From positions 1 through 40,651 of the IMG/VR virus record IMGVR_UViG_3300046533_000621: a stretch of 40,651 bases of DNA. One strand, given 5' to 3'. This document shows positions 2,345 to 25,557 of the stretch, piece after piece. A program made the translations under genes and the position numbers. The notes beneath the pieces were generated by a model, which worked only from the letters and a program-made list of their open reading frames with translations, ran no database searches and had not been told where the DNA came from. Within the stretch, counting starts at the first letter, position 1. Every line of letters begins with the position of its first letter. Origin of the DNA: a virus.

Positions 2345-2637
2345 TGGGGCGCGAGGAGAAGGCCGCGGCGCAGCGCGAGGCGGTCGTCGGCGAGCTCGAG
2401 GTTGGCGGCGAGCTCGTGCTGCTGCCGAAGATGGACGAACGCCAGGCCGCGATCGATCGGCTGCGTCCGCGATGGTGGCGCCGCGCGCTCGATTGGCTGC
2501 GCGATCGCTTCCGGCGCGGAGACGTCGAGACGGTCGGGATGGGCCGCATGCCCCGAGCGAAGCATCGCGAGATGATCGCGTTCGCTCGCGAGAGCGGCAA
2601 CGGCGCCATGCTCGAGTGCTTGAAGCGTCAGAAGTAG
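2344..2637 (+). CDS. Hypothetical basic protein, 97 aa
   Basis: The ATG at 2344 shares a base with the previous TGA; a GTG at 2341 would add one Met and give a GTGA overlap. The middle is Arg/Trp-rich (RLRPRWWRRALDWLRDRF, about residues 40-57) and could form an amphipathic basic helix. It ends at 2637, overlapping the 3' end of the oppositely oriented terminase gene by 10 bases, so it is the last gene of its unit. No family recognised. Confidence 0.65.
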   Translation: MGREEKAAAQREAVVGELEVGGELVLLPKMDERQAAIDRLRPRWWRRALDWLRDRFRRGDVETVGMGRMPRAKHREMIAFARESGNGAMLECLKRQK

Positions 2638-4328
2638 CCGCCGTTCCCCGCGACGATGTCGTCGTAATCTTCGTCGTCGCCAACGAGCGAGCTGAACTCG
2701 CCGCGCGCCGATCGGTCCGGTTCCATGAACGGCAGATCGTTAGCAGGCTTCGGCGATGCCGCAGCCGGCGCTTCCACGGCGCCAGTCTCGAACATCGTTG
2801 CGATCGCCTTGCGCGCGTAGACGAGACAGTCCGTCGAGTGATTGGACTGCGCCTTGTTCTCTTGCAGGTTGCCCCATGAGTCCTCTTGCCACTGGAGCTC
2901 TTGAAGCTGCACATACAGCGGCGATCCCTTGAGGATCTTGAGCCGGCCGTCGACCAAGTCACCGTTGACGAGTTCGATCGCGCCGAACTTGAGCTCACGC
3001 TTCCACTCGCTCTTTGTGAACCGAACGCCGTAGACGTTCTGGAGCTCGTCGATGTGGTTCTTATCGGCATCGATGACGGACGCGTCCGGGTATCGCGTGA
3101 GCCGATAGAGGCCGTCGAATGGCTCGACGTTCTTTCCGGCCAGGACGCGCGAGACCGACTCAGGGCCGAGCACGATCTCGGCGATCGAGCGGGCGTACAT
3201 GCCGGTGCGCTCGAACGCGTAGACGTGGAAGATGCGGCGCTCCGGGTCAGCGGGCGCAAACGCGAAGATGTTGAGCGCGAAGGGATCGGCCGAACCGAGG
3301 TCGGCGCCGTACACGTACCGCCACTCCTTGAAGTCCTTCGGCAGCGCGGCGATAGCCTTCTCTAGGTGCAGCGGCGTGCCGCCACGCTCGCCGCCGAGCG
3401 GATCCCACTCGTTCCACGGCGCCCCGTCGCGGTGCGGGCGGAACTTGAAGACGTGCTCCGTGTTGTCGGCGGCCCAGCGCCCCTTGTACTCGCGAAGCCA
3501 CGTCGGATTTTCGTCGCTCCATCGGCTGGCCGCCTTGATGGCCAGGTGATCGCGGTGCAGGTTTACGAGCGCGGGGTACTTCGCCGCGGCGTCGGGCAGC
3601 GCGACGACGTCGTCGAGCGACCATGCATGAGAAGTCCAACCGAGCTCCGGCCAGTCGGCGAACTCCGGCGATTCGCGGTCGGCGTAGGGGCGATGGAGCG
3701 GATGGCCGTCCTTGTCGGTCGCGCCCGGTCGCGTGAACTCGTAAAACGGGCCGCGCATGATGTGGTCGGGCGTTCCGCCCATCACGATCGCGCCGAGCCG
3801 ATCGCCGATGCGCGGCATAAGGATCTGGTAGAGCAGTCGCTGCAGTAACTCAGGCGGATAGATGCCGGCTTCGTCTACGTGCACTTCGTCGAACGGCTGG
3901 CCGCGGAGTTTGTCGATCTCGCCTTTGTCGTCTACGCCAACGAGCCGATACGTCGCCCCGGTCGAGCGGAACGTGAGCTTGAGCTTGGTCTCGTGAAAGT
4001 CGATGTCGCGCCCGACTTCAAGGCCAAGCCCTTCACACGCGTTCTTGAGCGGGTCCCACATGAGTTCGGCGGCCATCGGCCGCGAACTCGCGCAGTAGAC
4101 GAGACGCCCGCCGCGAATGCGCGCCAACTTGCGCAGCGCGCGAATCATCATCGAAGTCGTCTTGGCGCCGCCTCTGCCAACCAAGTAGGAGATACAGCGG
4201 GACAGATCGGAGACAGCGTCGCGTTGCCACGGATGGCACTCGTCGAGTAGGCCGTCGATTCGACGTACGAGCGCGCCGTCGGCCCAGCGGATGCGCGCAG
4301 CCGAGCTCGTCCGCTCGTGAGGTCTCAC
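2628..4328 (-). CDS. terL: Large terminase subunit
   Basis: This 566-residue packaging motor protein couples ATP hydrolysis to DNA translocation into the prohead and cuts the DNA. Visible motifs are a Walker A (VGRGGAKT, residues 50-57), a Walker B with catalytic acid (FDEVHVDEA, about 146-154) and a C-terminal RNase H-like nuclease with acidic residues in GADLGSADP (D343), VIDADK (D420 or D422) and STDCLVYA (D500). Length is normal for the family. It starts with GTG at 4328, overlapping the portal stop (GTGA). The C-terminal tail (about 515-566) is acidic and low in complexity. The gene points opposite to the capsid genes, which is unusual. Confidence 0.95.
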   Translation of the reverse strand: MRPHERTSSAARIRWADGALVRRIDGLLDECHPWQRDAVSDLSRCISYLVGRGGAKTTSMMIRALRKLARIRGGRLVYCASSRPMAAELMWDPLKNACEGLGLEVGRDIDFHETKLKLTFRSTGATYRLVGVDDKGEIDKLRGQPFDEVHVDEAGIYPPELLQRLLYQILMPRIGDRLGAIVMGGTPDHIMRGPFYEFTRPGATDKDGHPLHRPYADRESPEFADWPELGWTSHAWSLDDVVALPDAAAKYPALVNLHRDHLAIKAASRWSDENPTWLREYKGRWAADNTEHVFKFRPHRDGAPWNEWDPLGGERGGTPLHLEKAIAALPKDFKEWRYVYGADLGSADPFALNIFAFAPADPERRIFHVYAFERTGMYARSIAEIVLGPESVSRVLAGKNVEPFDGLYRLTRYPDASVIDADKNHIDELQNVYGVRFTKSEWKRELKFGAIELVNGDLVDGRLKILKGSPLYVQLQELQWQEDSWGNLQENKAQSNHSTDCLVYARKAIATMFETGAVEAPAAASPKPANDLPFMEPDRSARGEFSSLVGDDEDYDDIVAGNGGYF

Positions 4329-6208
4329 GCCACCGCTTGCGCCGCCATCGGATTGAATGCCGATTGCGGCGTGCCGGCGTTAGGTGCCGAGCCGGGCATC
4401 GCAGGACCGCCACCAGCGCCCGGCTGCATCGCCGCCTGCGCCATCGCCTGGTTCTGGTTCGCCGCCTGCGCCTGCTTCATCAGGTACACGGCGAGCGAGG
4501 CGTAGTTCCGTGCGCGCTCGAGCACTTCCTCGGGTGCACCGTCGACGACCCAGATCTCGTATTGCATGTGCGACCGCCACGCGGCGAGCTCGAGGTTCGT
4601 GAACGGATCCGGCATGACGTCCTCGCCGTCGGCGATGCGCTCGAGGTCGTATTCGACCTTGTCGAGCGCCGCTGTGTAGAGCGAGAGCGATCGATCGAGG
4701 TCCGGATGCGCAAGCAACCGCCGCGCTTCGTCTTGCGCGATAACGCCAGCCTGCGCCCACTCGAGCACGGTCTGTAGACGACCTGCGGGCGTACGCGACA
4801 TTGTGCTCGCCGCCTGGAGTTGGATCTTCAGGTCGCCCATGTCGACCTGCGACCACTCGATCTTCTTCTTGCCGAACCGCGACGGCCGAAGGACGGCGGG
4901 CGCCTTCTTACCGAGCTTCTTGCACGTCCAGAGGATGAGCCAGACGATGTTGAGAACGAACTTCTCGAACGCCTTCTCTTGCGTCGCAAAGCGCTGCGTC
5001 GACTGATCGCGGTACTCGCGGAGGGCGATGCCGGAGTCGAGGCCTGCCGGCTTCGTCGACTGCGCGGCCATGCGCGACACGCCGAACTCCTCAAACGAGC
5101 TCGTCTTGGTGCGCTCACGATGTTCAAGCGTCAGCGGCGACACCGCTTGCGGAACGACCGTTACAGGAACGTCGCCGCGATAGATCGCGATCGTGCCGAG
5201 TCGACTTGTCGTCTTGGTCGCGAGATTCGCATCCGTCGGGCGTACGTACGTCGTCGGCACCGCGAGCTGATCGTGCTGGCGGTCGATCTGCCAATTGAGC
5301 TTATTGAGCGTGAGTTGGTGGCCGACGATGCGTTCGCCGCCGCCGATGCCGTACCAGCTACCCGACCGCGTCTCCCAAACGATCTTGAGAACGGGAAAGA
5401 AATCCTCGTCCCATTCCTCGTCCACGAGGTCGGCCCCGTCGATCGCCTTCACGTGTCGGCCTGGGCGGTAGTACTTCGAGCCCTTGCGCCCGAAGGGGCG
5501 GAACCACGACTCGATAACGACGGTCTCGTAGGGGCGAAGGCTGGAGTACTGGACGCGGCGTGACACTGCAGATCCGCCCCGCAGAAGGCCGGCGCGGTCG
5601 ATCTCGTCGGCGAACTCGGGATACTCGGTCTTGAGATCCTCTTTGGAGACGTTCGTGCGGCGATGGTGGAGCTGCTTGGCGGACTGCTCGAAGCGACACT
5701 CGAGCTCGTTGACGATGATGTCGTCAGGCAAGACGTGCTCGACGACCACGTCGTCGTCGCGCGTCGTCGACACCTTCACGCATCCGGTCCCCTTCTTTGC
5801 TGCTTCCTTGAACGCCTTGCGTGCGTGACCGTGCACGTCGTGCAGGGCCATCATCGACTCGGAATACCACTCGAGATGGCGAGCGCGACGCTGTTGCGAC
5901 CAGTCCGCGCCGTCCGTCTCGACTCGCGGAGACACCTCGGTCTCGGCGACAACAGCCTTGACCGTGTCGACATTGCTCGCCAACACGTTCTCGTTGACGA
6001 TGCCGCGATTCTCGAATGCGTACTGGTCGACGATTGCGTTGTTGTTGGGGTCGTAGAGCGCTTCCAGGCGAATAAACCGCTCGTAGATGGCCTGCTGTCG
6101 CTGCTCGATCTCGGGAACCTGGCGGAACAGCGCCTCGTGGACGGCACCGGTGTCGGCGTTTTGCCAGAGATGCGCAGTCGCCTCGTTCTTTCTGCCGCGG
6201 ACCTTCAT
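4325..6208 (-). CDS. Portal protein
   Basis: A 627-residue protein immediately downstream of a small gene and upstream of the terminase, the usual packaging order. Its N-terminal third has a long helical region (EALFRQVPEIEQRQQAIYERF) and the R-x-R-H-L-E-W-Y and Y-G-I-G-G-G-E-R segments typical of podovirus-type portals. The last ~60 residues are Gln/Ala/Met-rich and low in complexity, like a disordered or barrel-lining tail. It would form the dodecameric DNA channel at one capsid vertex. The start ATG at 6208 overlaps the preceding stop by 4 bases. The call rests on size, sequence style and position. Confidence 0.88.
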   Translation of the reverse strand: MKVRGRKNEATAHLWQNADTGAVHEALFRQVPEIEQRQQAIYERFIRLEALYDPNNNAIVDQYAFENRGIVNENVLASNVDTVKAVVAETEVSPRVETDGADWSQQRRARHLEWYSESMMALHDVHGHARKAFKEAAKKGTGCVKVSTTRDDDVVVEHVLPDDIIVNELECRFEQSAKQLHHRRTNVSKEDLKTEYPEFADEIDRAGLLRGGSAVSRRVQYSSLRPYETVVIESWFRPFGRKGSKYYRPGRHVKAIDGADLVDEEWDEDFFPVLKIVWETRSGSWYGIGGGERIVGHQLTLNKLNWQIDRQHDQLAVPTTYVRPTDANLATKTTSRLGTIAIYRGDVPVTVVPQAVSPLTLEHRERTKTSSFEEFGVSRMAAQSTKPAGLDSGIALREYRDQSTQRFATQEKAFEKFVLNIVWLILWTCKKLGKKAPAVLRPSRFGKKKIEWSQVDMGDLKIQLQAASTMSRTPAGRLQTVLEWAQAGVIAQDEARRLLAHPDLDRSLSLYTAALDKVEYDLERIADGEDVMPDPFTNLELAAWRSHMQYEIWVVDGAPEEVLERARNYASLAVYLMKQAQAANQNQAMAQAAMQPGAGGGPAMPGSAPNAGTPQSAFNPMAAQAVA

Positions 6209-6492
6209 CGCTTCGCCTGTTTCCCATGCTGCACGTCGTCGATAACCTCGAGATGGCGAACGCCCGGCAGCTTAGAGCCCTTCGGCAGCCCGTATGTGTG
6301 CGGATCGTTCAACGGATCGATAGGCATCTCGTCCTCCTCGGTCTTCCGAGCGATAGGCTCCTCTTGAAACGGAGCTAGCGACGCTTTCATGTCGCCGATC
6401 GTCACCTCGAGTACGCCGGCGCGGCGGAGATCCAGCGCGCGACGCACGAGAAGGTCAACGAGCCTGTCGGCGTCGCTCGGAGGCTGTGACAT
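6205..6492 (-). CDS. Hypothetical protein upstream of portal, 95 aa
   Basis: First gene of the leftward packaging unit. The N-terminal part is a likely helix (DADRLVDLLVRRALDLRRAG) followed by a short strand (VLEVTIGD); the rest is polar, with a Pro-rich PIDPLNDPHTYGLP segment. It could be a portal accessory or head-assembly protein, but nothing in the sequence settles this. Its ATG at 6492 lies 31 bases from the divergent scaffold gene. Confidence 0.65.
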   Translation of the reverse strand: MSQPPSDADRLVDLLVRRALDLRRAGVLEVTIGDMKASLAPFQEEPIARKTEEDEMPIDPLNDPHTYGLPKGSKLPGVRHLEVIDDVQHGKQAKR

Positions 6493-6523
6493 CTCGAGTC
6501 AGAGTATTGTATTCTCACGGCCA
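6493..6523. promoter_or_regulatory. Divergent promoter region between packaging and capsid units
   Basis: Only 31 bases separate two oppositely directed start codons. Minus strand: TACAAT (complement of 6507-6512) matches the -10 consensus at 5 of 6 positions and would start RNA about 8 bases before the ATG at 6492. Plus strand: TATTCT at 6510-6515 would start RNA within a few bases of the ATG at 6524, which has no Shine-Dalgarno. Convincing -35 boxes are not visible on either side, so an activator or a phage-specific sigma factor may be needed. Confidence 0.45.
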
Positions 6524-7549
6524 ATGGCAACTGAGACCGTCCCGCCGGAGAATCCGGCTGTCCCCAAAATGGAAATCCGCACGGGCGCACGGCCAAGCGT
6601 CCACAACAAAGCGGCAATCCTGGCCGAGCTCGACGACGAGGCGCCTACGCCGGTCGCCGCCAAGCCGGTAGTCGAGAAAAAGCCTCCTCTGGCAGAGGAA
6701 AAGACCGACGAACAGGCGGAGACCGACGAAGAAGCGCCGAAGATCGAGGCCAAGGACGAGAAACCTGACGATCCAGACGACAAGGCACTAGCGCGCATCA
6801 AGGCGCAAGAGAGTCGGATGCGCGCCGACGTCGCGAAGGAAAAAGCAGAACTCGAGCGCGACCGGGCGGCGTGGAAAGCCGAGCAAAGGAAGGTCGAGCA
6901 GACCGTCGAACAGATTCAGAAGCTCGGGGCGCGCGCCAAGTACGATCCCGCCGCGCTGTTGCGTGCGTTCGGCGTCTCCGACGACGATTTCGCCGACGTG
7001 TCGCGGCTGATCTATTCGGAGTCGCCCGAGTTCGCCAAGGATCCCAAGAACAAGGAGGCTGCGGCGAAGTTCGCGCGAGACAAGGAGTACACCGACAAGG
7101 TGCGAGCGCTCGAAGAGAAGCAAAGGAAGTTTGAGGAGCAGCGCGAGGCAGAGAAGAAGGAACAGGAGACCAAGGAGCAACTGGCGGAGTACGTCGACGG
7201 TGTCGTGAAGGGCGGCGTGAGCGCCGACGCGACGCCGAGGGTACAGAAGCTGCTCGACAAGTCGCCGCGCGTCGCCCGGGCCGACCTACAGCAGATAGCC
7301 GAGATCATGGCGCACGAAGGTGGCGACATCTCGCCTAAGTCGGTAGCGGCGATGTTCGAGCGCGTGCTCGAGCAGGAAGCCGAAGAGTACGGATACGAGT
7401 CGGCAAAGCCGAAGATCGAACCGGCAAAGGTCGAAAAGAAGGCGGCGACAGCGACAGTGCCGACAAACGGAAGGGCAGTCGCCAAACCGGGCGCCCGGAC
7501 GACTCGCTCTGAACTACTCGCGAAGATCGAAGCAGACGACCTCACGTAG
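6524..7549 (+). CDS. Scaffold-like capsid assembly protein
   Basis: A 341-residue, highly charged protein placed just before the major capsid gene. Residues about 25-85 are disordered and Glu/Lys/Pro-rich. Residues about 90-135 (KAELERDRAAWKAEQRK) and 185-225 (LEEKQRKFEEQREAEKKEQ) are strong coiled coils, and the C-terminus is basic. This composition and position match scaffolding proteins, which template the prohead shell and then leave. The start ATG at 6524 was chosen because upstream codons read antisense through the neighbouring gene. It lacks a Shine-Dalgarno, so translation may be leaderless. Confidence 0.8.
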   Translation: MATETVPPENPAVPKMEIRTGARPSVHNKAAILAELDDEAPTPVAAKPVVEKKPPLAEEKTDEQAETDEEAPKIEAKDEKPDDPDDKALARIKAQESRMRADVAKEKAELERDRAAWKAEQRKVEQTVEQIQKLGARAKYDPAALLRAFGVSDDDFADVSRLIYSESPEFAKDPKNKEAAAKFARDKEYTDKVRALEEKQRKFEEQREAEKKEQETKEQLAEYVDGVVKGGVSADATPRVQKLLDKSPRVARADLQQIAEIMAHEGGDISPKSVAAMFERVLEQEAEEYGYESAKPKIEPAKVEKKAATATVPTNGRAVAKPGARTTRSELLAKIEADDLT

Positions 7550-7662
7550 CGGTGATGTCAATAGGCACTTGCGTGCGATGCGATTGTCGTGCATCGTGAT
7601 CGCGTAGAGCCGAAGTTCCTGTCATCGCCGACGAGCTGACGCGGCACCGATGCCCGACGAGA

Positions 7663-7681
7663 CCGAGCGCACCGCGCTCGG
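7663..7681 (+). promoter_or_regulatory. Strong hairpin ahead of the major capsid gene
   Basis: CCGAGCGC (7663-7670), loop ACC, and GCGCTCGG (7674-7681) form a perfect 8-bp GC-rich stem. No U-run follows, so it is not a standard terminator. It ends just before the capsid gene's GGAG (7685-7688). The 150-base gap between scaffold and capsid (7550-7699) holds no other gene I can support. A role in RNA processing or 5'-end stability of the capsid message is possible. Confidence 0.4.
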
Positions 7682-7699
7682 CTTGGAGCTCGCGACGAC

Positions 7700-8902
7700 A
7701 TGGCTGCTTCGGATCTGACTACCACCGCGTTCATCTACAAAAAGAACTACTCGACGGTTCAGGTTCGCGACCTCACGACGCGCGACCACGTCCAGTACGC
7801 GATGACGCCGCACGAGGACATCTTCATCGGTGCCTCGTACGACTACGTCATCCGCTCGGGAAACCCGCAGGGCATCTCCGGCACGTTCGCCAATGCACAG
7901 GCGAACGCGTCGAGCTCGAAAGGTCTCCAGTTCTCGGGCACGCGCAAGAACAAGTTCGGAATCATCACGATGGACGGCGAGGCAATCGCCGCATCGCGAG
8001 GGAACAAGGGCGCGTTCTACGACCTCGTCACGATGGAGACCGACAATCTCCTCATCGAGATGGGGGACCGTCTCGCGTTCGACTTCTACCGCGACACCTC
8101 GGGCGTTCGCGGTCAGCGCAAGTCGATCAGCGGCAACATCGTGACCGTCGTCGACGTCGACACGGTCCGCAACTTCAAAGAGGGTATGACCGTCGGCGCA
8201 TCGCCGAATGCCGATGGTTCGTCGGCGCGAGTCGGCACCACGACGGTCTCCGCGATCGACGAGGATAGCGGCAAGTTCACGCTCACCAACGCGGGCGCGA
8301 TCGCGTCCTTTAGCGACAACGACTACCTGTTCGCCGACGGCGACGTCGGAACGTGCGTCGAGGGGCTCGAGGTCTGCACGCCGCTCACGGCGCCGACCGC
8401 CGGCGACTCGTTCCGCGGCAAGGACCGCAGCGCCAACGTGCGCCGTTACGCCGGCTCGCGCATCAACGATACCGGCACGCCGATCGAGGAGAATCTCGGT
8501 CTCTGCGCAGTCCACATCTCGCAGCAGGGCCGCGCGCACATGGTCGACTGCGCGTTCCTGAACCCGATCAACTTCTGGATCGTGGCGCGGCGACTGAACG
8601 CCAAGGTCGAGTATGAGACCGGCGGCGGCACGGCCGACTACGGCTTCCAGTATCTGATGCTTCACACGCCGGCCGGGTCGACCAAGATCTACTCGGATCC
8701 GGACTGCCCGACCAACCGCGGGCGCCTGACGCGCATGGGGACTCAGCGCCTCGTGACGATGGAGGGTTATCCGCACATCATCCAACAGGACGGTCTCGCG
8801 TCGCTCCGTTCAGCGACCGCCAACTCGATCGAGGCGCGTGCGTGGGCCTCGGGAAACCTCGTCCAGGACGACCCCGTCGCCCAGGGCGTCATCGCGATCT
8901 GA
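7700..8902 (+). CDS. Major capsid protein
   Basis: A 400-residue protein directly after the scaffold gene. The N-terminal arm (MAASDLTTTAFIYKKNY) leads into a region with GIITMDGEAIAAS (about residues 90-103) and a long helix (DLVTMETDNLLIEMGDRLAF). Residues about 150-210 (VTVVDVDTV, GTTTVSAIDEDSGKFTL) resemble an inserted beta domain. The C-terminal part has LNPINFW (287-293) and YSDPDCP (331-337). Size, composition and position fit an HK97-fold capsid subunit of a podovirus-like phage. Start: ATG at 7700 with GGAG 11 bases upstream. A short separate gene at 23016-23219 repeats the region around residues 286-340. Confidence 0.88.
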   Translation: MAASDLTTTAFIYKKNYSTVQVRDLTTRDHVQYAMTPHEDIFIGASYDYVIRSGNPQGISGTFANAQANASSSKGLQFSGTRKNKFGIITMDGEAIAASRGNKGAFYDLVTMETDNLLIEMGDRLAFDFYRDTSGVRGQRKSISGNIVTVVDVDTVRNFKEGMTVGASPNADGSSARVGTTTVSAIDEDSGKFTLTNAGAIASFSDNDYLFADGDVGTCVEGLEVCTPLTAPTAGDSFRGKDRSANVRRYAGSRINDTGTPIEENLGLCAVHISQQGRAHMVDCAFLNPINFWIVARRLNAKVEYETGGGTADYGFQYLMLHTPAGSTKIYSDPDCPTNRGRLTRMGTQRLVTMEGYPHIIQQDGLASLRSATANSIEARAWASGNLVQDDPVAQGVIAI

Positions 8903-9697: not shown

Positions 9698-10066
9698 ATG
9701 ATGGGATCGTTCTATCCAATCGTAAGCGACAGCGTGCAATCGCGATGGCGCGTCGCCCGCATTGTCGGCAACGGCACGGGCACGCCGACGATCGCGCTCG
9801 GCGCCGGCTTCACGATGTCTCGTGTCAGCGCAGGCGACTACAAGATGACGTTCACGGAGAACCCCGGCGTCTACTGCGGCGCCGGCATGGACCTGCAGGC
9901 GGCAACGCCCTCCGGTCTTGCCGGCTTCACGGTCGTCGTGAAGGACTACGACGCAACCAACTTCGTCGTCGAGTTCGTCATCTACAACACCTCGCAGGCC
10001 GCTACGGATCTCACGAGCTCGCAGTCGGTCAACGTGCTCGCGCTGTTCAAGCAGTCGAACCTCTAA
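9698..10066 (+). CDS. Small virion protein, possible capsid decoration, 122 aa
   Basis: A beta-rich protein with two adjacent start codons (ATGATG at 9698) behind an AAAGGA ribosome site. The pattern of short strands (WRVARIVGNG, FTVVVKDYDA, FVVEFVIYNT) suggests a compact beta sandwich. It lies between the 254-residue structural protein and the connector. A decoration or head-completion role is likely, but no family is recognised. Confidence 0.7.
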   Translation: MMGSFYPIVSDSVQSRWRVARIVGNGTGTPTIALGAGFTMSRVSAGDYKMTFTENPGVYCGAGMDLQAATPSGLAGFTVVVKDYDATNFVVEFVIYNTSQAATDLTSSQSVNVLALFKQSNL

Positions 10067-21344: not shown

Positions 21345-22168
21345 TCGGCCCGCGGCTCGGTGTCAAGGACGGGCCTATGTTCGGGCCGCGCCTTGGCATC
21401 GGCGCCGACCAGATCGCGCCGCAGGGCCTCGTCGGGCTCGTGACGCGAGACGCGTCCAGCTTGATCTACTGTCCGGCGACCGCGGCCGAATGGACCGCCA
21501 CGATGGCCGCTGCCGGTCTGTCGGCGATCGGCAATCCAACGCAGCTCTGGAAACTGCAAGAGGCGAGCGGCTCGCCGGCCGACTCGATCGGCAGCGCGAC
21601 GCTTACGGCGAACGGCGCCGTCTCGTATCAGCAGACCGTTTCGGGTTGGACTCGCAAGGCGATCGTCCCGACGTCCGGCGGGGCCAATTACCTCTTTAAC
21701 AACTCGGACGGCGCGCTCTCGGACGGCTCCACCGTTCCGGTTACGCTTCTAATGTACGTCGCTATTACCTCTACGCCTGGCGCGGACGTGGATGTCGCGC
21801 TTATTGGAGATTCGAACGGTCCAAAGGCGATCGTTACCTCCGCCAATAAGCCAAAGCTCATGATAAACGCGAGCGTAACGGCGACGGGCGGAAGCGCACT
21901 CGGGACCGGGGTTCGCCCATGGGTCATCTCGACGCCAGGCGGGGTCGCGCCCGCATATAACAACCTGTACGACGATCTCGAAGTCGTCGCGCCCGCATCT
22001 ACCAACTGTTCTTCGGCGCTTAAGCAGGTCTTTTTTGGCGGCGTCGTCGAGGCCGCCCCCTCGATGCAAATGCTCTATGCGGCGCAATGGGCCGGGACTG
22101 GCAAGAGCATGACGACGGCGCAGACAAGAACGCTTCTTTCTACGCTCGGCTGGTCGCCTGCGTTCTGA
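21341..22168 (+). CDS. LamG/ConA-like receptor-binding candidate
   Basis: Read from GTG 21341 (GTGA overlap with the previous stop) this gives 275 residues. The N-terminus has a repeated GPRLG-V/I module. Residues about 75-270 look like a concanavalin/LamG beta sandwich: WKLQEASGSPADS, then strands (VPVTLLMYVAIT), ending in YAAQWAGTGKSMTTAQTRTLLSTLGW, the kind of closing helix seen after LamG domains in phage tail proteins. Last structural gene before the lysis region, a usual place for receptor-binding proteins. The fold is inferred from sequence style; the ligand is unknown. Confidence 0.7.
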   Translation: MIGPRLGVKDGPMFGPRLGIGADQIAPQGLVGLVTRDASSLIYCPATAAEWTATMAAAGLSAIGNPTQLWKLQEASGSPADSIGSATLTANGAVSYQQTVSGWTRKAIVPTSGGANYLFNNSDGALSDGSTVPVTLLMYVAITSTPGADVDVALIGDSNGPKAIVTSANKPKLMINASVTATGGSALGTGVRPWVISTPGGVAPAYNNLYDDLEVVAPASTNCSSALKQVFFGGVVEAAPSMQMLYAAQWAGTGKSMTTAQTRTLLSTLGWSPAF

Positions 22169-22175
22169 GGAAGCC

Positions 22176-22487
22176 ATGAACACACCGCCGTTCGGAACCC
22201 CCACATGGGCTCGCCAGCTCCACAACGAGCTCACCGAGCACACCAAGGAAGACCGGCAGCTGTTCCGCTCGCTGCACGACGGGCAGGCCGAGCTCCAGGT
22301 CGAGACCGGCAAACAGACGGTCATGCTCGCCGAGCTCCTCGAGGACAGAAAGGTGCGGCGCGAGGTCGATGCCAAGCGCGCCGGCACCGAGATCGAGACC
22401 AAGGCGAAGATCAGCGTGGCGTGGAAGACGTCCGCGCTCGCCGCGCTGTCAGCCGTCCTCGGTTGGCTCGTCCACCACTTCATGTAG
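22176..22487 (+). CDS. Small membrane-anchored coiled-coil protein of the lysis region
   Basis: A 103-residue protein with GAGGAA before the ATG. Residues 10-75 are a charged coiled coil (LHNELTEHTKEDRQLFRSL, VMLAELLEDRKVRREVDAK), then one hydrophobic C-terminal segment (about 80-100, WKTSALAALSAVLGWLVHHF). Soluble N-terminus with a C-terminal anchor fits a pinholin- or spanin-associated protein, or a virion-associated membrane protein. The exact role is open. Confidence 0.7.
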   Translation: MNTPPFGTPTWARQLHNELTEHTKEDRQLFRSLHDGQAELQVETGKQTVMLAELLEDRKVRREVDAKRAGTEIETKAKISVAWKTSALAALSAVLGWLVHHFM

Positions 22488-22489
22488 CC

Positions 22490-22741
22490 ATGGCCGAGAA
22501 TCCCGACATCGACCGCCATGACATCGCGGATCTGCGCGACTCGATCCGGTCGCTGGCCGTTGTCGCGTCACGGCTCGAACAGACGCTGCAGCGCGGGATC
22601 GGCAGCCTGCTTGCCGCGCTCGAGCAGATCGCCACGAACACCGAAGGACTTCCCGCGCTGGTCGAGGGCTTGCGTTCGCACGCGAATGGCAGCCAATCTA
22701 TCGGCGGATCCGCTAATCTATCAGCATCGGAGGAAACATGA
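22490..22741 (+). CDS. Hypothetical coiled-coil protein, 83 aa
   Basis: It starts at ATG 22490, two bases after the previous stop. The sequence is mainly one amphipathic helix (DIADLRDSIRSLAVVASRLEQTL and LLAALEQIATNTEGL), with a Ser-rich tail and no membrane segment. It overlaps the holin-like gene downstream by 4 bases. Placement suggests a partner of the holin or of the anchored protein upstream. Confidence 0.65.
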   Translation: MAENPDIDRHDIADLRDSIRSLAVVASRLEQTLQRGIGSLLAALEQIATNTEGLPALVEGLRSHANGSQSIGGSANLSASEET

Positions 22742-23019
22742 CGGAAGGACTACAGTCGGGCGCCGCGCTCACTGCCGCAGGGCAGCTCCACGCCGCCGTC
22801 GATCTCGCCAAGTCAGGAATCTTGACGCCAGTCCCCACTCCAGGGTGGCGCACGTCGGAGTTCTGGATGAAGCTCGCCGCGCTTCTCCTGACGGCGCTCT
22901 ACGCGAGCGGCGTCATCCCGACGAGCGGCGTCGGCGCGCAGATCGCCGCGATCGCCGCGACCATCCTTGGCGCGGTCGGCTACACGGTCGGGCGCTCGCT
23001 CGTCAAGGCGGGATCGTGA
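22738..23019 (+). CDS. Holin candidate
   Basis: A 93-residue protein with two hydrophobic segments (about residues 44-61, MKLAALLLTALYASGVI, and 67-87, AQIAAIAATILGAVGYTVG) separated by a short turn, and a basic C-terminus. Size, two membrane spans and a charged tail fit a class II holin, which would open the inner membrane and release the endolysin. GGAGG lies 5 bases before the ATG. It overlaps genes on both sides by 4 bases. Confidence 0.75.
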   Translation: MTEGLQSGAALTAAGQLHAAVDLAKSGILTPVPTPGWRTSEFWMKLAALLLTALYASGVIPTSGVGAQIAAIAATILGAVGYTVGRSLVKAGS

Positions 23020-23219
23020 GGGAGGAGTTCCATGCGCTGAACCCGGTCGACTTCTGGCTGATTCGCCGGAAGCTCGATGCCGCCGTTCGGCTCGACGGCG
23101 ATCGGTTCGAGTACATGCTCGTCGGTCCCGACAAGGACCACCTCCGCAAGGTCTACAGCGATCCGGACTGCCCGCCTCGAGCCGACGTCGAGCAATACCT
23201 GAGGGAGATCTGCCAATGA
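23016..23219 (+). CDS. Detached partial copy of the major capsid protein, 67 aa
   Basis: Starting at GTG 23016 (GTGA overlap) this encodes 67 residues that align with major capsid residues about 286-340: LNP-V-D-F-W here against LNP-I-N-F-W in the capsid, then a shared basic helix, F-E-Y-M-L against F-Q-Y-L-M-L, and an identical YSDPDCP. The capsid side has a ~5-residue insertion. It ends in a new helical tail (ADVEQYLREI). The frame is intact and overlaps its neighbours at both ends, so it looks like a maintained gene rather than debris. Function is unknown. Confidence 0.8.
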   Translation: MREEFHALNPVDFWLIRRKLDAAVRLDGDRFEYMLVGPDKDHLRKVYSDPDCPPRADVEQYLREICQ

Positions 23220-23581
23220 CCAAACAGCAGCCATGGGTCGCGCTCGTGCTGGCACTCCTCGTCGCCTGTTCCGCCTCGGCCCGCCAGAAGACGATCGCGA
23301 CCACGTTCGCGGCGACCGACGTTGCTCGCGCGACGTTCGTTGCGTTCGACGAAGCGCACCAGAAGGCGATCGTTGCGAAGGCGACCGACCGCGCCAGCGC
23401 GGAGAAGGCGTTCGCCGAGTACTACGACACGCGCCAGAAGGTGGTCGATACGTTCACGGTCACGTACCGCGCGATCGCAGCAGCTGCGGTCATCAACACC
23501 GATCAGAGCCTATCCGCGATGCTTCAGGCCGCGGTGATTCTCAGCGGGGCGCTCAAGGCGCTCGGAGTGGCGGTGCCATGA
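23216..23581 (+). CDS. Predicted lipoprotein of the lysis region
   Basis: A 121-residue protein whose N-terminus is a type II signal peptide: a short polar start, a hydrophobic run (WVALVLALLVAC) and a lipobox L-V-A-C with Cys 18. The mature part is helical and charged, with a hydrophobic C-terminal stretch (about residues 101-121). In this position an outer-membrane spanin is the first suggestion, although known o-spanins are usually shorter and Pro-rich. It overlaps its neighbours by 4 bases on each side. Confidence 0.7.
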   Translation: MTKQQPWVALVLALLVACSASARQKTIATTFAATDVARATFVAFDEAHQKAIVAKATDRASAEKAFAEYYDTRQKVVDTFTVTYRAIAAAAVINTDQSLSAMLQAAVILSGALKALGVAVP

Positions 23582-23850
23582 CGCTATCGGTCCGGCTTGC
23601 TCAACGAAACGACCAACTCGTCGCGCTCGGCCCGGTTCCGTCGTGGTGGCGCTTCCGTGCGCGCGCCGCATGGATCCGCCGCTACCGCGCGATCATGGCG
23701 ATGGACCTCAGCGCGACGGCCGAGATCTACCGCGCGATCTACTCGACCGCGGCCATCGAGGAGCTTCAGAAGTCGCGAGTCAACTACTTCGCGCTGAAGG
23801 TGGCGGCGCCGTCGGCATCGCCGCTGTACGAAACGGAGGCGTCCAAGTGA
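23578..23850 (+). CDS. Hypothetical protein, 90 aa
   Basis: The N-terminal half is basic with aromatic residues (VPSWWRFRARAAWIRRYRAI, about residues 20-39), possibly an amphipathic, membrane-touching helix. The second half is an ordinary helix (TAEIYRAIYSTAAIEELQ). No membrane span of full length is seen. It is coupled to both neighbours by 4-base overlaps. No family recognised. Confidence 0.6.
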   Translation: MTLSVRLAQRNDQLVALGPVPSWWRFRARAAWIRRYRAIMAMDLSATAEIYRAIYSTAAIEELQKSRVNYFALKVAAPSASPLYETEASK

Positions 23851-24041
23851 CCGAGGAACTCATCCTCGCCGGCCTAACGGCGATCGAAGCGATCATCAGC
23901 GCGATCAAGAGCGCGCAGAGCGGCGATACCAACGCGGCGACCGTGCTCGTGCATCTGCAGGCGCTCAGCGATGCGCTCGCGGCCAACGATGCGGCGGCGA
24001 AGGCGAGCCTCGATGCGAAGTTCCCGACGGGGGCGGCGTGA
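23847..24041 (+). CDS. Small Ala-rich helical protein, 64 aa
   Basis: The GTG start at 23847 overlaps the previous stop. The sequence is a helical hairpin candidate (LILAGLTAIEAIISAIKSAQ, then TVLVHLQALSDALAANDAAAKASLDAK). The first helix is moderately hydrophobic and might associate with membrane, but it is not a clear span. Function unknown. Confidence 0.6.
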   Translation: MTEELILAGLTAIEAIISAIKSAQSGDTNAATVLVHLQALSDALAANDAAAKASLDAKFPTGAA

Positions 24042-24274
24042 CCGGCAACACGCGACTTCGAGATCTGCACGACGAGATCGCGGCGAGCAATGCAGCCACG
24101 GCGGACGCGTTCAACCGCTTCTATGAGCTGCTCAACCGTGAGATCCGCGCGGCGAATCTCTACTACGACGAGACGCAACGCCACCTTGACGAGCATGGCT
24201 ACTGTCACTGCGATGAGCCGGAGCCGCGCGAGGTCGTCGGCCTCGGCGACTACATCCCCAGGAATAAACCATGA
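24038..24274 (+). CDS. Hypothetical protein with a Cys/His-containing tail, 78 aa
   Basis: The GTG start at 24038 is coupled to the previous stop. A helical N-terminus (LHDEIAASNAATADAFNRFYELLN) is followed by HLDEHGYCHCDE, a small cluster of His and Cys that could bind a metal only weakly or in a dimer. It overlaps the 28-residue membrane gene downstream. No family recognised. Confidence 0.6.
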   Translation: MTGNTRLRDLHDEIAASNAATADAFNRFYELLNREIRAANLYYDETQRHLDEHGYCHCDEPEPREVVGLGDYIPRNKP

Positions 24275-24357
24275 CGCTCGACATCTTCACGGCGCTCGTG
24301 TTCGCGATCGCGATCCTCATGGCGATCTACGCGGTGAGCAAGGTGCTGGAGCGGTGA
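24271..24357 (+). CDS. 28-residue single-span membrane miniprotein
   Basis: ATG 24271 to TGA 24357 encodes 28 residues, of which about 18 form one hydrophobic segment (IFTALVFAIAILMAIYAV) followed by a short charged tail (KVLER). Its ATG overlaps the previous stop (ATGA) and its stop overlaps the next GTG (GTGA), the same coupling as all its neighbours, which is the main reason to accept so short a gene. It could modulate the holin or anchor a lysis complex. Confidence 0.55.
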   Translation: MTLDIFTALVFAIAILMAIYAVSKVLER

Positions 24358-24749
24358 CGGTCGTGACGGTGTCCAGCTTCAGCGCAGCGCTCAAAGACTA
24401 CTATCCGGCGCCGGGCACGCGCATCAAGCAGTACGTGGTGGACACGTATCGCGAGAACAAGTGGGAGCGCGAGACGTGTCCACGCTTCACGATGCCAGCG
24501 CACGACGACAACACGGACGCGCCCTGTCGCAACGCGATAGAGGCGGTGCCGTGGACGTACCTCGATCACGACTGCTGCTACTTCTGCGGCGACCACCACG
24601 AGCAGCTGCGCGCGCTGCCGGAAGTGCAGGCATGGCTCGCGGAGCGCGCGAAGCGACCGCCCATCGAGAGCGACCGCTCGAAGTTCAGCGACGAGATCGC
24701 GCCGGAGTTGTCGTTCGCGGCGCACCCGCTGCTGGCGAAGGTGCCATGA
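24354..24749 (+). CDS. Cys/His-rich protein before the endolysin, 131 aa
   Basis: The GTG start at 24354 gives a GTGA overlap; in-frame GTGs at 24363 and 24369 are alternatives. Residues about 40-85 contain C-P-R-F, a later C-R-N, then D-C-C-Y-F-C-G-D-H-H, a probable zinc site. The C-terminus is helical. No lytic motif is seen. It is translationally coupled to the endolysin that follows. Confidence 0.65.
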   Translation: MTVVTVSSFSAALKDYYPAPGTRIKQYVVDTYRENKWERETCPRFTMPAHDDNTDAPCRNAIEAVPWTYLDHDCCYFCGDHHEQLRALPEVQAWLAERAKRPPIESDRSKFSDEIAPELSFAAHPLLAKVP

Positions 24750-25366
24750 GCGACCCGCGCCCCTGCTCTGCGCCTGAAGCCGTTGCTCGCGCCTTGCGCT
24801 GCGTCGCCTCGAAGAAGGGGCAGTACGTGCTCGGCACCGGCGACTACCGGCCTGGCTCGAGCTTCGGCCAGCTCGTCGACGAGCCGTGGACCGATCGCGG
24901 CGACGGCACGGTCGGCTCGGACTGCGCCGGCTTCGCGATCTCGTGGTGCTACAAGTTGCGCCGTCACCGGCCGGGCTACAACGTCGGACCGTGGAGCTCG
25001 TGCAGCGACGACATCAACTGCAACAGCGCGCTCGAGGACGCCCAGCACGCCAAGGACTGCTTCGCGCTCGTCGACGATCAGACGCCGCTGCCGGGTGACC
25101 TGCTGCTCTATCCGAGCTTCACGCTGGCGACCAGCGATGGTCCCAAGCAGTTCATCGGGCACGTCGCGATCGTGGTTGGCGTGTCGCGCGTCCAGGCGTG
25201 GGATGCGAGCTCGCCGCGGTGGGACCTGCTCGACGTCGCGCAATGCCACGGGCCCAACGGATTCAAACCCGGCGCGGTGGCGACGGATGGGAGCATCTGG
25301 CTACGGCACGACGTCGTGTGGCCGAAGCCGGAGCACCGGAGCCATCTGATACGGGCGTTGCCTTAG
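24746..25366 (+). CDS. Endolysin (NlpC/P60- or CHAP-like peptidase)
   Basis: A 206-residue cell-wall peptidase. Catalytic Cys60 lies in S-D-C-A-G-F-A-I-S-W at the start of a helix, and His139 in F-I-G-H-V-A-I-V-V-G, with the typical P-G-D-L-L-L-Y-P strand just before. This Cys, then PGD, then G-H-V-A order is that of papain-like NlpC/P60 and CHAP enzymes, which cut peptide bonds in peptidoglycan. There is no signal peptide, so it would need the holin. Extra cysteines (66, 86, 92, 105) are notable. It closes the late unit, and its stop overlaps the convergent gene. Confidence 0.82.
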   Translation: MSDPRPCSAPEAVARALRCVASKKGQYVLGTGDYRPGSSFGQLVDEPWTDRGDGTVGSDCAGFAISWCYKLRRHRPGYNVGPWSSCSDDINCNSALEDAQHAKDCFALVDDQTPLPGDLLLYPSFTLATSDGPKQFIGHVAIVVGVSRVQAWDASSPRWDLLDVAQCHGPNGFKPGAVATDGSIWLRHDVVWPKPEHRSHLIRALP

Positions 25367-25557
25367 CGACGGCTTCGACGTTCCTCGTCGAGCTTGTCCA
25401 GCCAGCGGCCGCGCGCTCGCTCGAGTCGCTTGAAGGCTTCGGCGCGCTCGATTGGGTCGCTCGGCGTCTGCCCCGCGGCCATGTTCCAATAGATGTACTC
25501 GAGCTCGGCGGCGGAGAGCGCCCGCCACATGGTGCGATACGGGCCGTCGTCGCTCAT
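25363..25557 (-). CDS. Small hypothetical protein, 64 aa
   Basis: Last gene of the leftward unit. The start at 25557 (ATG, overlapping the previous stop) was chosen; the longer frame upstream reads antisense through the next gene. The protein is helical (MWRALSAAELEYIYWNMAAG, then AEAFKRLERARGRWLDKLDEE) with a basic tail. Its stop overlaps the endolysin stop by 4 bases on the opposite strand, leaving no room for a terminator between the two converging units. Confidence 0.65.
   Translation of the reverse strand: MSDDGPYRTMWRALSAAELEYIYWNMAAGQTPSDPIERAEAFKRLERARGRWLDKLDEERRSRR

Follow-up and report, generated by a model that had tools for sequence, protein, structure and literature searches.

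The locus

The DNA analysed here, the whole 40,651-nucleotide viral record IMGVR_UViG_3300046533_000621 (the window), carries at 23016-23219 on the plus strand a frame of 67 codons with a GTG start, here termed the mini-gene, that overlaps its neighbours on both sides. Its GTG at 23016 lies on the stop codon of the frame 22738-23019 (+), forming a GTGA, and its TGA at 23217-23219 lies on the ATG of the frame 23216-23581 (+), forming an ATGA; the initial annotation had described an intact 67-residue frame with these two overlaps, and its coordinates proved exact. GC content at the three codon positions (0.72/0.34/0.84) is typical of a coding frame, and codon log-odds also support the frame. The product, the mini-protein, starts with six residues that precede the region of homology (residues 7-55, see below) and is predicted to end in a helix (58-66). 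GAGGGAG, the likely Shine-Dalgarno sequence of the next gene, lies within the mini-gene near its 3' terminus, 8 bases 5' of the ATG of that next gene. The possibility that the mini-gene DNA is an RNA element was ruled out by its folding z-score (-0.74). Consensus scans of 22000-25500, limited to promoters of sigma-70 type, which may not be the host's, found neither promoter nor terminator.

The upstream frame encodes a small membrane protein of 93 aa, a holin candidate on the basis of a transmembrane-like stretch only, which matched no Pfam family. The downstream frame encodes a putative lipoprotein of 121 aa with a signal-peptide-plus-Cys pattern. The identities first proposed for these neighbours go as far as these two features, and assignment of the area to lysis is supported by the CHAP-domain match of an endolysin candidate at 24746-25366 (+).

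The major capsid protein and its relationship to the mini-protein

The major capsid protein (MCP) of this phage is the 400-aa product of 7700-8902 (+). In Foldseek its AlphaFold2 model (pLDDT 87.6) matched the SU10 capsid (2e-12) and HK97 Head II (2.5e-9), and also encapsulin shells, and VIA-align returned Z scores of up to 18.5; on these model comparisons it is an HK97-fold MCP over its full chain, with SU10 and HK97 as the nearest solved structures. It matched no Pfam or PHROGs family, and no relative of it was found in 50,697 GenBank phage records or in GTDB genomes. IMG/VR holds at least 45 relatives, and divergent members of the family match Pfam SU10_MCP; the family is that of a phage group known from metagenomes only. 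In the window, terminase and portal (2628-6208, minus strand) are encoded on the strand opposite to the scaffold candidate and MCP (6389-8902, plus strand); in the relative L030 all four lie on one strand, while the portal similarity in a sister phage, L063 (see below), has the same orientation as in the window.

The mini-protein had been reported to resemble capsid residues of about 286-340 and to share an exact YSDPDCP with them, and all our comparisons bore this out. BLASTP aligned it with MCP residues ~287-340, encoded at 8555-8716 (+), at 37% identity and 60% positives over 52 columns (5e-11), with YSDPDCP identical in the two proteins. The alignment score of 96 is 18 SD above the mean for shuffled sequences (25.3, sd 3.8, maximum 49; n=2000). 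An MCP-family HMM made from the IMG/VR relatives of the MCP matched the mini-gene at E=3.6e-8 in a search of 11,995 ORFs, as the sole ORF other than MCPs with E below 1e-3; profile comparison by hhalign gave E=3.4e-11 and, when 40 MCPs were used, 1.3e-10. When all frames of the window were compared with one another, the mini-gene and the MCP gene formed the single convincing internal paralogy. The similarity is true homology, beyond chance. An extension of the homology 5' of the GTG, in which 'ARQGG' aligned to the MCP, was rejected because the sister phage, which lacks the mini-gene, has that stretch at 97% identity; the DNA belongs to the holin-like gene.

In the MCP model the shared stretch consists of a strand (284-287), a helix (289-298), a glycine-rich, poorly predicted loop and two strands (318-323 and 326-332), followed by SDPDCP, an arrangement that we take, from knowledge of the HK97 fold, to be the beta-alpha-beta-beta core of the A-domain. 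A-domains form the centre of the capsomer in HK97-fold capsids. The mini-protein is not itself a full MCP, which would unite a P-domain, an E-loop and an A-domain in a single chain, but has the equivalent of MCP 287-340 only; that it represents the A-domain core of an HK97-fold capsid protein, trimmed and encoded on its own, is nearly certain. Searches for an orthologue of the mini-gene in IMG/VR, with the mini-protein and with a profile, in GTDB genomes and in GenBank phages returned MCPs or chance matches only, and searches of whole related records, again with mini-protein and profile, gave nothing but MCPs except for P0003 (see below).

Fold and divergence of the mini-protein

AlphaFold2 predicted for the mini-protein a beta-alpha-beta3-alpha fold (pLDDT 88.9, pTM 0.75) from an input alignment of 29 MCP segments, which may bias the model towards the MCP shape. 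The isolated model had no significant match in PDB or BFVD, a 67-residue model being too small to reveal capsids in this way, and no capsid chain was among the Foldseek matches listed. The best solved-structure matches were beta-alpha-beta3 modules of VOC (glyoxalase/bleomycin-resistance) proteins, at a Z of 4.8 over 49 residues, which is background level. The likeness to these modules is one of topology; no sequence relation to them was detected, and the mini-protein matched no Pfam family, VOC included, at E up to 1. Its C-terminal segment had been described as a new helix. A helix is indeed modelled at residues 58-66, in place of the strand seen at 349-353 of the MCP model, but the MCP of a relative, L005, reads DDQYLRIL where the mini-protein reads VEQYLREI, so that to judge from the residues themselves this stretch may be altered rather than new.

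Of the 20 columns in which MCPs show at least 80% conservation, the mini-protein retains 11, whereas every MCP in the set keeps at least 16 (16-21). The positions kept are N-P, F, A, V, F and D-P-D-C-P; those lost are R, K, Y, two loop glycines, T, A, G and R, and the glycine-rich loop of the MCP is absent. At the DNA level, the mini-gene resembles the MCP gene of its own phage over 28 bp only, at the YSDPDCP motif. In a maximum-likelihood tree of the segment, the mini-protein has the longest branch (1.48, the next being 0.90), indicating that the mini-gene has its own history, and it attaches, with poor support from few columns, near the MCPs of two relatives (L022 and L053) and not to its own. 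That the mini-gene arose recently by duplication of the MCP gene of the same phage is ruled out by the brevity of the DNA match and by the failure of the tree to pair the two. Thus of the detached capsid copy first proposed, an intact and detached part of an MCP stands; given the tree and the divergence, its origin in the phage's own capsid gene is not demonstrable. Between the two genes dN is 0.61 and dS 0.94 over 45 codons, a short comparison near saturation. The mini-gene looks like an old, intact gene that is evolving apart from capsid constraint, not like a fresh fragment.

The site occupied by the mini-gene

The genes that flank the mini-gene recur, at a DNA identity of 95-97%, in the sister phage IMGVR_UViG_3300046517_001909 (L063, 40,372 bp). 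Identity to the window is 97% over 22858-23019, which includes the 3' end of the holin candidate with its GTGA, 95% over 23238-24052, 94% over 22170-22666 and 92% over 24746-25365, in the endolysin candidate. Positions 23020-23237 (+) of the window, which we term the variable slot, are replaced in L063 by 93 bp between the holin-like stop codon and the lipoprotein gene; these lack the mini-gene and contain a tRNA-Ser(CGA) gene at 9895-9977, the 3' end of which lies exactly at the slot junction. No tRNA was found in the window. As the GTGA is common to both phages, the mini-gene start codon uses bases of a conserved neighbour, and at the other end the start and first codons of the window's lipoprotein gene fall within the slot. 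In L063 the lipoprotein frame reads back in phase through the tRNA gene to the common GTG.

The mini-gene is thus present in one phage and missing at the same site in a close relative, as cargo or moron genes are, and since L063 has a tRNA gene there between genes 95-97% identical in DNA, its position in the lysis region is probably that of an opportunistic cargo slot. Further slots of this kind were sought through relatives of the holin-like, lipoprotein and endolysin genes, and that of L063 was the only one found. L063 has an MCP that is distantly related within the same family (267 bits); the two phages share the lysis region and not the capsid, which is ordinary mosaicism.

The adjacent slot differs as well: window 22667-22857 corresponds to L063:9238-9672, where L063 has a 144-aa gene with a AYTAGLIDGAGFI motif reminiscent of LAGLIDADG homing endonucleases. 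This reading of the gene is unconfirmed, as no Pfam family matched it.

Detached A-domain segments in related phages

A profile of the segment, run against 33 whole contigs of the MCP group, had one match other than MCPs: P0003, a 181-aa protein encoded upstream of terminase in a 59-kb record (G001). The reverse search with P0003 recovered the same MCP segment in seven records; P0003 matched an HMM built from MCP segments only at 19.6 bits (E=3.3e-4), with shuffled sequences never above 6.4, and the MCP segment in hhalign at E=1.6e-5. That P0003 contains a detached MCP A-domain segment is well supported. A second protein, P0004 (100 aa; records G002 and G045), resembles the C-terminal part of P0003 (BLASTP 3e-5) and was the only relative of P0003 found outside the latter's own record. 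It matched the MCP segment in hhalign at E=4.6e-4 with a probability of 33%, and in HMMER at 5 bits only, making a detached segment in this case tentative. Both proteins are encoded directly 5' of a similar small gene, zinc-ribbon-like in G001. The two small non-capsid proteins of MCP-group phages that have this A-domain segment, one solid and one tentative, are located at L030:447-989 and L080:1316-1615 (minus strand).

P0003 and P0004 are counted here as analogous to the mini-gene, orthology not being established, and they suggest repeated reuse of the A-domain core within the MCP group. They also bear on the grounds for doubt offered with the initial annotation, namely absence of any homologue from related phages together with an excess of non-synonymous changes: the mini-gene has no orthologue, but relatives have analogous detached A-domain genes, and the dN and dS values lie near saturation.

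Discussion

The function that we consider most likely for the mini-protein, with a probability of about 0.4 judged from its sequence and by analogy with known systems, is that of a capsid mimic, either decoy or competitor. An MCP gene of the phage group would long ago have been the source of an A-domain core, carried since then as optional cargo in the slot flanked by the holin-like and lipoprotein genes and probably translated together with them at a late stage of infection. The product would fold in isolation and display part of the A-domain surface while being unable to build a shell, and could then engage the usual binding partners of that surface. If the partner were a host immune sensor that detects capsid protein, the product would act as a decoy; if it were capsid subunits or assembly factors of its own or a competing phage, the product would be a competitor. 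We place mimicry at this level because the capsid motif has been kept (the core elements NP..F, A.V, F and SDPDCP) while other capsid-conserved features have been lost. Moreover, capsid protein is known to trigger host immunity and to be a target of capsid homologues and scaffolds, and the detached segment in P0003, with perhaps that in P0004, indicates that use of this module recurs.

The first of these precedents is the host sensor CapRel-SJ46, triggered by capsid protein, described in a paper that also deals with Lit and Gol (PMC9712102). There, host proteins recognise MCPs or a short piece of an MCP, a circumstance in which a decoy would be of use, but these are host sensors and their trigger is the MCP itself; no phage-encoded decoy made of an MCP fragment was found in the literature searched. 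The second is Ccm of the phage satellite SaPIbov5, a capsid homologue that interferes with assembly (PMC8569155). Like the mini-gene, Ccm is a diverged capsid homologue that came from a phage by horizontal transfer and is used away from the usual head operon; unlike it, Ccm possesses the complete HK97-like fold, is incorporated into pentamers and redirects the size of the capsid, whereas the mini-protein, at 67 aa with ~50 A-domain residues, is not a full-length homologue. T4 gp24, the vertex protein, is likewise an MCP-derived paralogue with a distinct role, but a full-length structural protein (PMC9958956), not an A-domain core encoded in a lysis-type region. TcaP of PLE (PMC10945586) and Tab (PMC10884400) are mobile-element proteins that act on the virion assembly of another phage; the former is an external scaffold and the latter blocks tails, and neither is known as a derivative of an MCP A-domain.

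Several considerations weigh against mimicry. The residues lost include conserved loop positions, so that the surface to be mimicked may be gone; MCP is abundant during infection, and a decoy would compete with the phage's own capsid protein; and the AlphaFold2 model, obtained from an alignment of MCP segments, may merely have copied the MCP shape. The loss of 9 of the 20 MCP-conserved residues, the trimmed loops and the changed C-terminal element would also suit use of the A-domain core as a compact beta-alpha-beta3 scaffold for a non-capsid task, such as binding a host protein or a small ligand, and carried as interchangeable cargo. We rank this, tentatively, as the next explanation, close behind mimicry. 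It fits a slot that can hold a tRNA gene instead, the embedding of the A-domain segment in a larger protein in P0003, and the VOC modules as best solved matches of the isolated model; yet these last are background (Z < 5) and come without sequence support, and the exact YSDPDCP and LNP..FW motifs seem more than a generic scaffold needs.

It is distinctly unlikely that the mini-gene is a non-functional leftover, an MCP fragment captured by recombination, open by chance and drifting. One copy is known, the nearest relative has no orthologue, the signal of constraint relative to the MCP is weak, and capture of fragments is plausible in a slot of high turnover; but drift accords poorly with a long divergence that has brought no stop or frameshift, with the clean overlaps and coding GC pattern, with retention of the core motif while loops were trimmed, with the likely Shine-Dalgarno sequence of the next gene embedded in its end, and with the existence of other detached A-domain proteins in the group. 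Very unlikely is a role as minor component or assembly part of the phage's own virion, for example as a vertex or decoration element: homology to the domain at the capsomer centre speaks for it, but the protein was not found in other MCP-group records or in L063, is encoded far from the head genes and is too small for a capsomer role. The proposal that it links capsid and lysis timing, by reporting the state of capsid assembly to the lysis machinery, has in its favour only where the gene lies and how its start and stop codons overlap those of its neighbours, and is scarcely credible, since L063, with near-identical lysis genes, fills the slot with tRNA-Ser and no gene of this kind turned up in another lysis region.

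Returning to mimicry, a broader form of it, in which the MCP group repeatedly detaches its A-domain core as a small soluble capsid mimic, to decoy sensors or to interfere with assembly of competitors, strikes us as somewhat unlikely.

The view put forward at the outset, that no phage gene type is described as a capsid fragment in a lysis cassette, agrees with the literature searched, which is limited in scope and largely omits subscription papers; nor did it yield a description of a free-standing A-domain core gene. Paralogues of whole capsid genes, such as T4 gp24 and Ccm, were already known, unlike, in the papers searched, a single A-domain core as a gene of its own. If the mini-protein folds and binds, a piece of the HK97 shell would be reusable as an independent tool, structural work would gain a natural minimal A-domain, and whether phages decoy capsid-sensing immunity would become directly testable with a 67-residue protein.
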